A stretch of DNA of 42,647 bases, taken from positions 1 to 42,647 of the forward strand of contig NZ_PVWJ01000036.1 of the NCBI RefSeq assembly GCF_003003775.1. Direction: 5' to 3'. Positions 22,402 through 28,214 of this stretch are shown here, piece by piece. The DNA is from Merismopedia glauca CCAP 1448/3 (GTDB lineage Bacteria; Cyanobacteriota; Cyanobacteriia; Cyanobacteriales; CCAP-1448). The notes under the pieces are model-generated. The model saw nothing but the letters and a program-made list of their open reading frames with translations, ran no database searches and had not been told where the DNA came from. Both the position numbers and the translations under genes were made by a program. Position 1 is the first letter of the stretch, and every line of letters starts with the position of its first letter.

Positions 22402-23349
22402 GTGTTTTTCAGCGTTGTGATTCCAACATATAACCGTTTACCGATTCTGGAAAAGTGTTTGACAGCACTAGAGAAACAGCAACTCAAGTCAAACACGGCG
22501 ATCGCAGATTATGAGATAGTAGTAGTAGATGATGGCTCTACAGATGGCACTATTTCTTGGCTAGTAGCACATCAGCCAGAGTTACCCCATGTTCGTTGGT
22601 TTGAGCAAAATCATGCAGGTCCTGCTGCGGCACGCAATCTGGGTGTAGCAAAGGCTCAAGGAGATTTTATCATCTTTATTGATAGCGATCTGGTGGTCAC
22701 AGCAGGTTTTTTGCAGAGCCATTGCGATGCTTTAATGGAGGGTGAGGCTGCAATTGAAAGCGATCGCCTTTTCACTTATGGTAGCGTTATCAATACCTGT
22801 AATTTCGATAATCCCACGGCTGAACCTTATAAAATCACTGATTTTTCCGCAGCTTATTTTGCTACTGGGAACGTTGCTATAGCCAAAAAATGGTTACAAG
22901 AAGCTGGCTTATTCGACACTCAATTTCAACTTTATGGTTGGGAAGATTTAGAGTTAGGGGTTCGCCTCAAAAAACTCGGTTTAAAACTGATTAAATGCCC
23001 CGAAGCAGTAGGTTATCATTGGCATCCACCATTCAGTTTAGCCGATATTCCCAACTTAATTGATAAAGAAATTCAAAGAGGAAAAATGGGAATTCTCTTT
23101 TATCAAAAACATCCTTCTTGGGATGTAAAAATGATGATTCAAATGACTTGGATTCATCGCTTATTATGGGGTATTTTATCTTTAGGTGGATTAGTAAACG
23201 AACGCAGTTTAGCACCTATTTTAAAACTTTTAATTGAACGAGGCAAACCACAACTAGCCTTAGAAATTGCGCGGATATTTCTTAATTGGTATAACGTTAA
23301 AGCAGTTTATCAAGAAGTCAGAAGTCAGAAGTCAGAAGTCAGAAGTTAA
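22402..23349 (+). CDS. Family 2 glycosyltransferase
   Basis: A 315-residue GT-A-fold glycosyltransferase. The nucleotide-sugar site has SVVIPTYNR at the start, VVVDDGSTDG (about 50-59) and FIIFIDSDLVV with the metal-binding DSD. The acceptor-side block GWEDLELGVRLKKLG holds the likely catalytic acid-base region (ED). There is no membrane helix. The start is GTG at 22402 behind GGGGAG. The last residues (EVRSQKSEVRS) are encoded by the AGAAGTC heptanucleotide repeat, so the natural C-terminus has probably been changed by repeat insertion. The sugar and acceptor are unknown. It is followed by a Uma2 gene. Confidence 0.9.
   Translation: MFFSVVIPTYNRLPILEKCLTALEKQQLKSNTAIADYEIVVVDDGSTDGTISWLVAHQPELPHVRWFEQNHAGPAAARNLGVAKAQGDFIIFIDSDLVVTAGFLQSHCDALMEGEAAIESDRLFTYGSVINTCNFDNPTAEPYKITDFSAAYFATGNVAIAKKWLQEAGLFDTQFQLYGWEDLELGVRLKKLGLKLIKCPEAVGYHWHPPFSLADIPNLIDKEIQRGKMGILFYQKHPSWDVKMMIQMTWIHRLLWGILSLGGLVNERSLAPILKLLIERGKPQLALEIARIFLNWYNVKAVYQEVRSQKSEVRS
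23313..23347. repeat. Heptanucleotide STRR, AGAAGTC x5, inside a gene end
   Basis: Four exact copies and one variant copy of the 7-bp unit form the last codons and the stop of the glycosyltransferase gene. This is the complement of the unit at 16430 and 40305. Confidence 0.93.
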
Positions 23350-24126: not shown

Positions 24127-24280
24127 AGGCTTAATGGCGATCGCAAAACACGGAAAGTATACAATAAGTCCGATCTGTTTTTCCTCAGATCGCACCCAAA
24201 GATAGAGGTGTAATCGACCGATTTTAGGGACGATGTAAAATTATGAAATTGTCCTGAAAATAAGGCGCTAGGAGGTAGTT

Positions 24281-25480
24281 ATTACTGCTAATCTTTCACT
24301 GCCCTCCCCAACTTGGCAAACCGATTTATCTGTAGCTCAAACCTTACTTAAAGCTAAAGAAATAGCCGACTTTTGTACTGCTAACGCTGCGGCGACGGAA
24401 GCTAAAGGTACTTTTCCGGTGCCAGAATTTGAGTTAATAGCTCAATCTGGTTTACTAGCAGTACCACTACTGCCAAAATGGGGTGGATTAGGACTGGGAA
24501 TTGATGCCAATTTAACCTATGAATTACTGATGTTGCTCAAGCAAATTGGGCGAGGTAATTTAGCCGTTGGTAGGATTTATGAAGGTCATGTTAATGCCTT
24601 ACAGCTAATTCAAACCTTTGGTAGCGAAGAGCAAATAGCTGCTTATGCTGAAGATGCGCGCGATCGCCATTATATCTTTGGGGTGTGGAATGCAGAAGCT
24701 GGAGATGGAGTCAAAGTCATTCCGTTAGAAAATGGCGGTGCTAAGCTGGAAGGCTCGAAAACCTTCTGTTCTGGGGCTAGTTACGTGCAGCGTCCTTTCG
24801 TTAACGGCGCTTTACCAGATGGGAAATGGCAAATGTGCATTGTCCCGATGGAGCAAGTTGCTACCGTCAGCGATCCGAGTTGGTGGCAACCTCCAGGAAT
24901 GCGGGCTACTGTCAGCTATAAGATAGATTTTACCGGAGTTGAGCTAGATGCACACTATCTCATCGGTCAGCCAGATGAGTATAATCGTCAACCTTGGCTC
25001 TCTGGAGGAGCAATCCGATTTGCAGCAGTGCAACTAGGAGGTGCAGAAGCTTTATTCAACATGACTCGCGACTTTCTCAGGTCTTTGCAAAGAACCAGCG
25101 ATCCATATCAAGAAATGCGCTTAGGACAGATCGCGATCGCTCTAGAAAGCGGTCATCAATGGTTGCGTAGTGTTGCCGATCTGATGGCTAACTATCATCC
25201 CATATTCGGCGGTTCGCCTCAAGCAGATAGTCCCGATGCCGATCGCATTGTAACTTATGCCAACATGGTGAGAACTGCGATCGAACAGATTTGCATGGAT
25301 ACGATTCAGCACGCAGAACGCTCGATCGGGACTCGCGGTTTACTTCCACCTCAGCCAATGGAAAGGGTAATTAGAGATTTAACCATCTATTTACGTCAAC
25401 CAGCCTATGATGGCACGTTGAGATCTGTAGGAAAGTATGCCTTAAGTAGCGATCGCATGGCAGACGAGTTATGGTCTTAG
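24281..25480 (+). CDS. Acyl-CoA dehydrogenase-like flavoprotein with probable AUU start
   Basis: A 399-residue acyl-CoA dehydrogenase-like protein. The N-terminal helical domain has AKEIADFCTANAAATEAKG, then FPVPEFELIAQSGLLAVPLLPKWGG in two blocks. The flavin/substrate loop reads FGVWNAEAGDGV in place of the usual TEPxAGSD. The end reads QPAYDGTLRSVG where typical enzymes have a catalytic Glu in YEGT, so Asp replaces Glu. It may be an atypical dehydrogenase. The only ATG/GTG start (GTG 24419) would cut off 46 conserved-looking codons. An AGGAGG ribosome site at 24270-24275 sits five bases before ATT at 24281, in frame, with a stop (24269-24271) just upstream. AUU is therefore the likely start. 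Its stop overlaps the next start by ten bases. Confidence 0.82.
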   Translation: MTANLSLPSPTWQTDLSVAQTLLKAKEIADFCTANAAATEAKGTFPVPEFELIAQSGLLAVPLLPKWGGLGLGIDANLTYELLMLLKQIGRGNLAVGRIYEGHVNALQLIQTFGSEEQIAAYAEDARDRHYIFGVWNAEAGDGVKVIPLENGGAKLEGSKTFCSGASYVQRPFVNGALPDGKWQMCIVPMEQVATVSDPSWWQPPGMRATVSYKIDFTGVELDAHYLIGQPDEYNRQPWLSGGAIRFAAVQLGGAEALFNMTRDFLRSLQRTSDPYQEMRLGQIAIALESGHQWLRSVADLMANYHPIFGGSPQADSPDADRIVTYANMVRTAIEQICMDTIQHAERSIGTRGLLPPQPMERVIRDLTIYLRQPAYDGTLRSVGKYALSSDRMADELWS

Positions 25481-26211
25481 ATTCCCTCACTCGTGCTTCT
25501 AGCTTACCTTGGAGATCGATTCAGGAACTTGCTATTCCTCCTGTATTAGTGGTTGCTCCCCATCCAGATGACGAAACCCTAGGCTGTGGAGGCGCGATCG
25601 CTCTCCTGCGTGCTCTGAATTGCCCTGTAGAGGTGCTAGTCGTCAGCGATGGTACGATGTCTCATCCCAACTCTATTCAGTATCCAGCCCCTGTTTTGCA
25701 AGCTCTAAGAGCATCTGAAACCTTAACGGCAATGCAGATTTTAGGAGTAGAGAAAGCGGAGGTTACCTTTTTAAACCTACCAGATGGGGCGGTTCCTTTA
25801 CCCCAGACTGATACTTGGGAAGATGGATTACTCAAGTGTCGAGAAGCGATCGCCAGCATAAAACCTCAAACCGTCTTTTTGCCCTGGCGCAGCGATCCTC
25901 ACCCCGATCATCGAGCTACTTGGCATCTAGTCCAAGCTGCAATGAGTTATTTGCACCTTTCTCCCCAAATTATTGAATATCCCATCTGGGATTGGGATAA
26001 ACAGCAACAAGGAATGATTTCTAATTCAACTTTGATGAAAGCTTGGCGCATTAATATTCAATCCGTGCGATCAAAAAAGCAACAAGCGATCGCCGCGTAC
26101 CGTTCTCAAATTAGTAATTTAATCGAGGATGACCCCTGGGGATTCCAACTTAGTCCACAAATGTTAGATAACTTTTTGCATCCTTGGGAAGTGTATTTAG
26201 AGCAAATATGA
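25471..26211 (+). CDS. PIG-L family deacetylase
   Basis: A 246-residue zinc-dependent deacetylase of the PIG-L/LmbE family, which removes acetyl groups from N-acetylglucosamine-type sugars in conjugates. The zinc-binding motif VVAPHPDDETLGCGG is at about 28-42, and the third ligand is in DPHPDHRATW. It has no membrane segment and should be cytosolic. It overlaps the end of the acyl-CoA dehydrogenase gene by ten bases and overlaps the methyltransferase start by ATGA, so the three genes are translationally coupled. The context suggests it deacetylates the same glycoconjugate that the methyltransferase and glycosyltransferase act on. The true substrate is unknown. Confidence 0.92.
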   Translation: MVLDSLTRASSLPWRSIQELAIPPVLVVAPHPDDETLGCGGAIALLRALNCPVEVLVVSDGTMSHPNSIQYPAPVLQALRASETLTAMQILGVEKAEVTFLNLPDGAVPLPQTDTWEDGLLKCREAIASIKPQTVFLPWRSDPHPDHRATWHLVQAAMSYLHLSPQIIEYPIWDWDKQQQGMISNSTLMKAWRINIQSVRSKKQQAIAAYRSQISNLIEDDPWGFQLSPQMLDNFLHPWEVYLEQI

Positions 26212-26804
26212 GCAATTCACAACCAGCTAATTCTCTACCTCCTAGCTACTTCGACCAAATTTACCAAAAGGAACCAGATCCTTGGAAGTTTGCCACGAGT
26301 GACTATGAAGCCAACAAGTACCAAGCTACGATTGCGGCTTTGAATCGAGATAAGTACCGCTCAGGCTTAGAAATTGGCGGTTCTATCGGTATTTTAACCG
26401 AAAAACTAGCTGCTAGGTGTGAATCCATTTTATCTTTAGAGGTTTCAGCCCTAGCTCAAAGCCAAGCGATCGCTCGTTGTCAGCATTTACCTCACGTCCG
26501 TTTCCAAATCCTGCAAGTTCCCCAAGAGTATCCCTTAGAAAAATTTGACCTAGTTGTCCTCTCAGAAGTCGGCTACTACTGGTGTTTAGAAGACTTGAAA
26601 CAAGCTCGTCAACTAATCTTAGATTCTCTAGAGCCAGGGGGACAAATCCTCTTAGTACACTGGTTACCATTCACACCAGATTATCCCCTCACAGGCGATC
26701 TTGTCCACGATACCTTCTTGGAATTAGTACCGCATCAAGTGAAACACTTACTATCTCAACGCGAGGAAAAGTATCGCCTTGACCTTTTAGAAAAACAAGG
26801 ATAA
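26208..26804 (+). CDS. NodS-like SAM-dependent methyltransferase
   Basis: A 198-residue class I methyltransferase. The opening YFDQIYQKEPDPWKFATSDY and motif I GLEIGGSIGILTEKLA match the NodS-type family; NodS N-methylates the free amine of deacetylated chitooligosaccharide in rhizobia. The fourth strand is FDLVVLSEVGYYW and the later motif is LEPGGQILLVHW. The start is ATG at 26208, overlapping the PIG-L stop as ATGA; an upstream GTG-type start within the PIG-L gene is rejected. A methyl transfer to an amine freed by the deacetylase is a natural guess. It is convergent with the GT2 gene, with a palindromic repeat between. Confidence 0.88.
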   Translation: MSNSQPANSLPPSYFDQIYQKEPDPWKFATSDYEANKYQATIAALNRDKYRSGLEIGGSIGILTEKLAARCESILSLEVSALAQSQAIARCQHLPHVRFQILQVPQEYPLEKFDLVVLSEVGYYWCLEDLKQARQLILDSLEPGGQILLVHWLPFTPDYPLTGDLVHDTFLELVPHQVKHLLSQREEKYRLDLLEKQG

Positions 26805-26831
26805 AGGTGTTGGGTTTTACTCCTGACTTCT

Positions 26832-26860
26832 GTACAGACGTAGCACTGCTACGTCTGTAC
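26832..26860. repeat. 29-bp palindrome flanked by heptanucleotide units, copy 1
   Basis: Perfect 14-bp arms GTACAGACGTAGCA / TGCTACGTCTGTAC surround one C. TGACTTCT units lie on both sides. It is in the gap between convergent genes and may stop transcription in both directions. A near-identical copy in opposite flank orientation is at 29426-29454. Confidence 0.9.
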
Positions 26861-26879
26861 GAATGACTTCTGACTTCTC

Positions 26880-28214
26880 TCACGCTCCTTTTTTCCATGA
26901 TATTTGAGGTGAGGGGCGATTAACGACTAAAGAGGGAACTTGACGTTGCTGGCGCAAACTATTGACTCGCACCCGCAAATCGGCAATTGCTTGCTTAATT
27001 GGCACTAAAGACCAGCGCTGTTGCCAAATCCCTTCTGTTTGCTGACGCTGTTCTACTTGCTCCCACAAAGCCCCAAAAGTTTGACTTTGAGCTAATTGCG
27101 ATCGCAACCAACTATGATTGATGCCTAAGTTTTTACTCACACGTATAAAATCATGATTTTTGGGCAAATACCCCGATAAATGCTGCTGCCAGATTTTGCG
27201 TAACCGACGACGAGCGCGTAAGCGGCTTTCTACAGCTAAAGGGGTTTCTACCCGAAATTCTTCGCCTTTTTGCCCCATCTCCGTCCACATTCGCAGTTGA
27301 TTAGCAAATCCTTCTGCGGTTCGCCCAGAATCGCGAGCGGCTGTGGTAACTTTAACCAATAGACTATGCCGAAACCGAGCGTCTGCTCTTACTAAAGCTT
27401 GATAAAAAGCCACATCTTCAGGAGTACGCACTGCTGGCATTCCTCCGACTCTTTGGTACATCTGGGCTGTAACCGCCAAACTCGCGCCGTAATGGTGATT
27501 ATGGCGAGGAAAACCGTCGAAAGGGTCAGGATCTATGTAAGCTTCTAATTCAACAATTAAAGAGTAGTATCCTGCTCCTCGTAAGAAACAATTTCTGGCA
27601 TGAGGTTCTAGATTAGCTCTTTGGTGGCGATCAGTCAAAATTTTGCCCCCAACGGCATCTGCTCCTTGGGCAATTTCTGATAAAGTTGCAGCAATCCAAG
27701 TAGGAGACACTCTTGTATCTCCATCTGTCGAAGCGATGACTCCTCGATCGCGATTAATCGACAATAGCCGTCTGCAAGCTTCATCCATCAACATTTGCCG
27801 CACCCGACCGATATATGCTTCTGATGCAGGTAAAGTTCTCTCAACTACGTGCAAGACTAAATCTGGATGTTGACTGGCAAAGTCACGAGCAATTTGGGCT
27901 GATTCATCCGTGCAATTATTGGCAAAAACAATGATTTCGTAGCGGTTTTTGGCAAGGGGTTGACCTTGCAGATCTACTTGTTCTAGTAAAGAGATTAATG
28001 TCTGAGTCAGGAGTGCAGCTTCATTACGCACAGGAACGATCGCGCACACTTCACATTCTGGATCGGGTGAGATCTCGACTAAAGGTCGATCTTTGCAGAA
28101 ATAGGAAGTGGAAGAGAGCCTACTTTCAAAAGTCACGGCTTCCTTCGATTTCATCAATACCTCTAAGCGGCTAGAAGGAGCATAACTACTAACTACTAAG
28201 CTATCGTTTTTCAT
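26880..28214 (-). CDS. Soluble family 2 glycosyltransferase, cluster-associated
   Basis: A 444-residue glycosyltransferase with a GT-A core. The nucleotide-sugar site is CAIVPVRNEAALLTQTL, then YEIIVFANNCTDES, and the metal site is ASTDGDTRVS (DGD). The acceptor region includes VGGMPAVRTPEDVAFYQAL with a likely ED acid-base pair. Unlike chitin-synthase-type GT2 proteins it has no membrane helix. The C-terminal 120 residues are basic and helical and fit no family I can name. It lies opposite the dehydrogenase-deacetylase-methyltransferase row. Similar sets of these four families occur together in other bacteria to my knowledge, which links it to that row. The sugar and acceptor are unknown. 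Confidence 0.87.
   Translation of the reverse strand: MKNDSLVVSSYAPSSRLEVLMKSKEAVTFESRLSSTSYFCKDRPLVEISPDPECEVCAIVPVRNEAALLTQTLISLLEQVDLQGQPLAKNRYEIIVFANNCTDESAQIARDFASQHPDLVLHVVERTLPASEAYIGRVRQMLMDEACRRLLSINRDRGVIASTDGDTRVSPTWIAATLSEIAQGADAVGGKILTDRHQRANLEPHARNCFLRGAGYYSLIVELEAYIDPDPFDGFPRHNHHYGASLAVTAQMYQRVGGMPAVRTPEDVAFYQALVRADARFRHSLLVKVTTAARDSGRTAEGFANQLRMWTEMGQKGEEFRVETPLAVESRLRARRRLRKIWQQHLSGYLPKNHDFIRVSKNLGINHSWLRSQLAQSQTFGALWEQVEQRQQTEGIWQQRWSLVPIKQAIADLRVRVNSLRQQRQVPSLVVNRPSPQISWKKGA

Follow-up and report, generated by a model that had tools for sequence, protein, structure and literature searches.

A four-gene set kept together across bacterial phyla, tentatively read as a route to an N-methylated glucosamine glycoside

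The window analysed here, which is the whole 42,647-nucleotide stretch of contig NZ_PVWJ01000036.1 of the cyanobacterium Merismopedia glauca CCAP 1448/3, carries four adjacent genes encoding an acyl-CoA dehydrogenase (ACAD)-fold flavoenzyme, a PIG-L family zinc de-N-acetylase, a NodS-family S-adenosylmethionine (SAM)-dependent methyltransferase (MT) and a soluble GT2 glycosyltransferase (Table 1). These four genes are a genuine, widespread set that is kept together beyond chance. With confidence a little short of even, we read the set as a mobile, all-or-none cassette that would provide a cytosolic route to a protective N-methylated, flavin-oxidised glucosamine glycoside.

Conservation of the four genes as a set

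The cassette had been described in the original prediction as three overlapping rightward genes and a convergent soluble GT2, with no membrane helix in any enzyme, and the open reading frame (ORF) coordinates and the hydropathy of all four proteins bear this out. By direct reading of the sequence, the flavoenzyme and PIG-L genes share 10 bases and the PIG-L and MT genes share ATGA; the GT2 gene is convergent with the MT gene at a distance of 75 bases. No membrane helix is indicated because the maximum 19-residue Kyte-Doolittle mean is at most 1.61 in each protein. All Pfam domains score over their cut-offs (Acyl-CoA_dh_N and Acyl-CoA_dh_2; PIG-L; NodS; Glycos_transf_2), and none of the NCBIfam models listed for the four proteins attains its own cut-off.

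Eighty loci were picked by the MT alone in a species-genome collection, from at least 471 relatives and at least 594 matched stretches. Our own profiles recognise the flavoenzyme in 78 of these loci, PIG-L in 78, the GT2 in 70 (the GT2 of L020 having been left out of the GT2 profile) and all four in 67; four of the ten GT2 misses are at loci no further than 600 bases from the end of a contig. The GT2 gene is convergent and downstream in 66 of 70 loci, as in the window, and on the same strand in the other four. These loci span Cyanobacteriota, Bacteroidota, Thermomicrobiota, Verrucomicrobiota and Chloroflexota (L069, where PIG-L was not recognised).

Joint inheritance is also seen across the class to which the window belongs, where 145 genomes were searched with at most 12 to 22 first-look candidates scored in each. 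Full-length matches to the flavoenzyme profile occur in 24 genomes, and G167 and G174 add fragments, for 26 in all. The GT2 profile matches 24 genomes; the MT profile matches 26, and in 24 of them the match is strong (at least 259 bits). In three separate searches the full-length flavoenzyme, the GT2 and the strong MT fall in the identical 24 genomes, and two random sets of 24 out of 145 would coincide with a probability of approximately 10^-27, relatedness ignored. Outside the 24 stand the two flavoenzyme fragments, that of G167 with a stop, together with weak MT rows in G167 and G101 and second MT copies in G054 and G106 (at most 134 bits); long open frames with a NodS-type MT domain occur in these same four genomes. 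The GT2 of G148 carries an internal stop, that of G119 shares a contig with the other genes at a distance of approximately 35 kb, and that of G158 is on another contig, which may reflect a contig break.

Plasmid records with an MT match numbered 84 and 166 in two overlapping sets, from which 19 annotated records were picked for diversity; an unannotated record (L024), one from Acinetobacter baumannii (L118) and four nodS records were also examined. In all 19 annotated loci the MT has a flavoenzyme no more than 6 kb away (recognised in Legionella through a hidden Markov model only), and PIG-L is present in 18. Taken over all sources, the four families are found in Cyanobacteriota, Bacteroidota, Thermomicrobiota, Verrucomicrobiota, Deinococcota and Pseudomonadota, with three of the four in Actinomycetota (L108, L109). 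Five PIG-L loci on viral contigs hold no other cassette gene by our own profiles. The clustering of these families in other bacteria, stated in the original prediction, is upheld by both the loci and the shared genomes and, because the set is kept or lost whole across distant phyla, its product should be useful.

Table 1. Features of the cassette and of related loci (positions in the window unless a locus is named).
Feature	Length	Position	Strand	Basis
ACAD-fold flavoenzyme gene	399 aa	24281..25480	+	Pfam; profile vs PDB sequences; AlphaFold2; Foldseek
Shine-Dalgarno AGGAGG of flavoenzyme gene		24270-24275	+	Direct reading
ATT putative start codon of flavoenzyme gene		24281-24283	+	Direct reading
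PIG-L family zinc de-N-acetylase gene	246 aa	25471..26211	+	Pfam; profile vs PDB
NodS-family SAM-dependent MT gene	198 aa	26208..26804	+	Pfam NodS; PDB 4isc, NodS 3ofj
Soluble GT2 glycosyltransferase gene	444 aa	26880..28214	-	Pfam; AlphaFold2; GT-A fold matches
Second GT2 (P0005)		22402-23349
Similar ORF, first copy	237 aa	7583-8296
Similar ORF, second copy	237 aa	23413-24126
Deinococcus radiodurans flavoenzyme with N-terminal extension		L018 1196-3535
GH1-like gene		L078 15130-16467		Pfam
CE4 deacetylase and NodS-type MT in one ORF	955 aa	L004 520-3387

The second GT2 lies upstream of the cassette on the same strand and is EpsD-like, under the NCBIfam cut-off. The two ORFs of equal length in the window are evidently similar to each other.

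Predicted chemistry of the encoded enzymes

The PIG-L protein scores 92.2 bits against its Pfam model (cut-off 28.2), and carries the zinc motifs PHPDDE and HPDH; in an alignment of 11 proteins, H31, D33, D34, H144, D146 and H147 never vary. When its profile is run against the PDB, the leading matches are diacetylchitobiose deacetylases (94 bits), TT1542 (88 bits) and BshB (71 bits), followed at lower scores by teicoplanin-type (pseudoaglycone) deacetylases (49 bits) and MshB (44 bits). The best solved relatives are mostly enzymes of N-acetylglucosamine (GlcNAc) conjugates; the exceptions, LnmX (47 bits) and 4-oxalmesaconate hydratase (38 bits), are not, or are not known to be, such enzymes. 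The MT matches Pfam NodS at 56.8 bits (cut-off 24), and its profile retrieves PDB entry 4isc (titled 'Methyltransferase', presumably from Pseudomonas syringae), NodS (3ofj), phosphoethanolamine N-methyltransferases and ToxA, which we take to be an N-methyltransferase. The two enzymes were thereby checked for grouping with enzymes of unrelated substrates, and their relatives proved to be mostly GlcNAc deacetylases and amine methylators.

PIG-L and MT are joined in one ORF in three loci (L061, L097 and L105 by our own profiles, L061 also by Pfam), and a Rubrobacter locus (L108) has a CE4 polysaccharide deacetylase at the usual place of PIG-L (Pfam). Because the nearest solved relatives and the deacetylase-MT fusions both favour it, the best reading of the pair is putative deacetylation and N-methylation of a GlcNAc-type sugar. 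The original prediction had proposed an N-methylated, acylated amino-sugar, of which the amino-sugar and N-methyl parts are kept on these grounds; the acyl part loses support through the monooxygenase-like character of the flavoenzyme. Two further fusions were observed. The single ORF of L004 resembles a NodB-NodS chain, and a HAD-type phosphatase precedes the MT within one ORF in eight Scytonema/Brasilonema-type loci (L026, L027, L030, L033, L034, L035, L039 and L040; cluster 12, with Pfam for L033), a fusion that may hint at a phosphorylated intermediate.

The ACAD fold of the flavoenzyme is found by both Pfam and Foldseek. Against PDB sequences its profile scores DszC at 102 bits, TdsC at 93, 5gj7/5z8t at 81 and MsuC at 80.5, in comparison to 69 bits for the best true dehydrogenase; sugar nitrososynthases (DnmZ, 3mxl; 3m9v/4kcf, presumably KijD3) are weaker matches at 41-49 bits. 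An AlphaFold2 model with a predicted local distance difference test score (pLDDT) of 91.9, for which 69 flavoenzymes were aligned, places TdsC and DszC at the top in Foldseek (E 4e-18, template modelling (TM) score 0.81-0.83, 22-23% identity in the fold alignment), with butyryl-CoA dehydrogenase behind them (E 9e-15). Since DszC and TdsC lead by both profile and fold, DszC-type flavin monooxygenases being nearest in each, the flavoenzyme is more likely a flavin-dependent monooxygenase or oxidase acting on a sugar than an enzyme of acyl-chain work. The altered flavin loop noticed earlier, WNAEAGDGV, is present; all 69 aligned relatives keep W136 and N137 and have A or T at residue 138. Asp377, the Asp that was proposed to stand in place of the catalytic Glu of dehydrogenases, is likewise invariant in all 69, within an RQPxxD motif; the YEGT-like look of the window protein is not conserved (Gly in 7 of 69, Thr in 15 of 69). 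The unusual acyl substrate that these features had been taken to suggest is not borne out, as the enzyme groups with flavin monooxygenases.

In D. radiodurans the flavoenzyme has approximately 400 additional N-terminal residues with no Pfam match at E 1e-4, which by eye look like a glycoside hydrolase barrel. Three Spirosoma loci carry near the set a gene of its own for a GH1-like protein (cluster 38; Pfam).

The GT2 is modelled by AlphaFold2 as a plain GT-A domain (pLDDT 88.6, 66 GT2s aligned). Its donor and acceptor are not readable from the fold, the top matches of which use fucose, rhamnose, mannose, GlcNAc and other sugars.

In cyanobacteria, translation of the flavoenzyme gene seems to begin at a conserved AUU or AUC codon. 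In the window, the first ATG, GTG or TTG of its ORF is a GTG at 24419 (residue 47); a start there removes 46 residues and would lose a helix predicted at residues 18-39 in the AlphaFold2 model. The start region was surveyed in 42 cyanobacterial flavoenzyme ORFs, many of them from closely related loci, with Gloeobacterales (L061), Gloeocapsopsis (L063), Nodosilinea (L062) and the window also represented. Fifteen of the 42 lack any ATG, GTG or TTG from the preceding stop to the conserved domain. The same lack is seen in 0 of 43 PIG-L, 0 of 43 MT and 1 of 35 GT2 genes of these loci, and in 1 of 37 flavoenzymes of other phyla. Nineteen of the 42 cyanobacterial loci, among them 13 of the 15, have an ATT or ATC at the conserved start site with a strong Shine-Dalgarno sequence ahead of it. 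AUU starts are rare and are known from infC and pcnB. The listings returned by a literature search on AUU starts held nothing pointing to the flavoenzyme gene.

Stress-gene neighbourhood and published occurrences

A role in stress is suggested for the cassette, a context absent from the original prediction. The 19 annotated plasmid records were hand-chosen, 12 of them after stress genes had been seen in the first ones. Eleven of the 19 have a catalase, at no more than 10 kb from the MT in 5 of them (expected 0.80, P 0.0004); trehalose phosphatase (OtsB) is present in 5 of the 19, within 10 kb in three (expected 0.54, P 0.008). The gene order in Comamonas is otsA, flavoenzyme, PIG-L, MT, glycosyltransferase, otsB, and an Acinetobacter johnsonii plasmid carries, over approximately 13 kb, a catalase, a PF14518 protein, a DUF2171 protein, the set and otsA/otsB. 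The PF14518 protein is probably DtpC, judging from its family and length.

In A. baumannii the diiron-oxidase-like DtpC is co-transcribed with KatE and protects dried cells (PMC13232832). ACICU_02432-02435 form one operon of the same species that is down 31-62 fold in colistin-dependent mutants, with otsA/otsB and a catalase repressed alongside it (PMC5660220). BfmR controls KatE, and BfmR control of trehalose genes is cited in the same paper (PMC6181384). The four families stand side by side, under product names only, as ACICU_02432-02435 (PMC5660220) and among the genes adjoining blsA (PMC6240043); the text available gives no function for either. In the literature searched, with subscription papers mostly outside it, these gene lists were met and the four genes were not described as a pathway, nor was a product of the cassette named in what was found. 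The set was not found in the available text on Chroococcidiopsis genomics (PMC13308351) or in that of PMC9162365, its terms were not found in the main text of a paper on BfmR (PMC5967708), and the repressed acyl-CoA dehydrogenases of Acinetobacter Tol 5 (PMC13130816) could not be matched to it. A putative aminoglycoside cluster of Rickettsia buchneri has PIG-L and a class I methyltransferase and is a different set, as an acyl-CoA dehydrogenase and a glycosyltransferase go unmentioned in the text seen (PMC8770908).

Neighbour families within 10 kb of the 80 genome loci were taken from the first 45 clusters listed, with Pfam run on 30 of the 42 clusters numbered 3-44 and on one of cluster 12. 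Recurrent neighbours comprise cell-shape genes, a short-chain dehydrogenase, a GMC oxidoreductase, a GT4, a GH1-like protein and DUF4142, and are mostly common to one genus or family.

Proposed pathway, alternatives and meaning

In the proposed pathway, the GT2 would attach a GlcNAc-type sugar to a small soluble acceptor in the cytosol, the PIG-L enzyme would take off the N-acetyl group, and the MT would methylate the freed amine. The flavoenzyme, as a flavin-dependent monooxygenase or oxidase, would then oxidise the N-methylated sugar, and the product may be a small protective metabolite of bacteria facing drying, ultraviolet (UV) radiation or oxidation. The donor, the acceptor, the order of steps, the flavoenzyme substrate and the protective role are what we infer from the observations above.

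Several points weigh against this pathway. The product, donor and acceptor are all predicted. The nearest folds of the GT2 use several different sugars, and true dehydrogenases have the ACAD fold too (TM 0.73-0.79, Foldseek), so that the flavoenzyme may yet act as a dehydrogenase. On plasmids, an annotated glycosyltransferase occurs in 15 of 19 loci, with none nearby in L018, L019, L023 and L109, and two of the 11 catalase records are defective (W04 has only a fragment, and the gene in W14 is interrupted by a stop). The 30 recurrent neighbour families of the 80 loci, loci that are mainly cyanobacterial and from Bacteroidota, include neither a catalase nor a trehalose-synthesis family, so that the stress link rests on hand-chosen plasmids and one published table. 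That table of repressed genes totals 33 (PMC5660220), and ACICU_02436, a DUF2171 gene adjoining the set, is raised in colistin-resistant strains, whereby the direction of expression varies by strain type (PMC6330354).

The original prediction drew a parallel to Nod-factor synthesis. The rhizobial genes nodC-nodB-nodS likewise supply a GT2, then a deacetylase and then a NodS-family N-methyltransferase whose target is a GlcNAc-type amine; the cassette differs from them in having PIG-L instead of CE4, a soluble GT2, a monooxygenase-like flavoenzyme and no NodA seen. By sequence the cassette is not a Nod-factor pathway, because the GT2 is soluble with NodC absent from its NCBIfam matches at E 0.01, and the MT scores 63.7 bits against a cut-off of 300 for the NodS equivalog NF041650. 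The NodC score of the second GT2 in the window is 23.3 (cut-off 550). In an MT tree the window MT belongs to a cyanobacterial clade, and the four NodS rows group by themselves at the end of a long branch (4.65) apart from it. An origin of NodS inside the cassette MTs was considered, but the NodS rows attach in an unresolved part of the tree, with several other long rows and bootstrap not settled. Synthesis by the set of an amino-sugar that is both N-methylated and acylated (Nod-factor-like or a lipid), with the flavoenzyme modifying the acyl chain, is quite unlikely. The ACAD fold, the NodS-family MT and the deacetylase would fit such a product, but the flavoenzyme is nearer to monooxygenases, all four proteins are soluble, and the acyltransferase or acyl carrier protein (ACP) expected to accompany it is absent from the 30 recurrent neighbour families (one short-chain dehydrogenase family matches a broad Pfam model that includes enoyl-ACP reductases). 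The genome also gave no NodA match, a weak negative as the control matched nowhere.

Decoration of a cell-surface or storage polysaccharide, with the GT2 adding and the other enzymes trimming amino sugars on a glycan built by adjacent glycosyltransferases, is an unlikely alternative that draws on extra glycosyltransferases by the set in Novosphingobium, Sphingobium and Jiella, a UDP-galactopyranose mutase by the set in Deinococcus gobiensis, a GT4 family that recurs at five loci of Bacteroidota (cluster 21; Pfam) and the second GT2 of the window. Set against these, the 30 recurrent neighbour families include no flippase or polysaccharide polymerase, with two ABC-transporter families in 3-4 loci, and most loci have a single full GT2 by the GT2 profile, other glycosyltransferase families not having been sought. 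A low-molecular-weight thiol or redox-buffer pathway is very unlikely. Mycothiol and bacillithiol synthesis (MshA-MshB, BshA-BshB) is similarly cytosolic and has a glycosyltransferase followed by a PIG-L deacetylase, the nearest NCBIfam model of the cassette PIG-L is BshB1, and catalase is associated with the set on plasmids. However, the PIG-L scores are far below cut-off (69.6 vs 182.5 for BshB1, 18.7 vs 224.35 for MshB), the cassette has an N-methyltransferase and a flavoenzyme, and its glycosyltransferase is a GT2, unlike BshA and MshA, which are GT4 enzymes. No cysteine ligase family occurs among the 30 recurrent neighbours, no genome-wide search having been made.

The pathway to an N-methylated, flavin-oxidised glucosamine glycoside has a more specific form, which we regard as doubtful: that the oxidised product is, for example, N-hydroxylated, is made in at least six phyla as a protectant against drying and oxidation, and that in cyanobacteria the first gene of the cassette is gated by the AUU or AUC start. 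Terrestrial cyanobacteria, Deinococcus, Hymenobacter and Acinetobacter are known for stress tolerance. If the product is a protectant, its role would be comparable to that of trehalose, and it may represent a common chemical answer to drying and oxidation in these bacteria.

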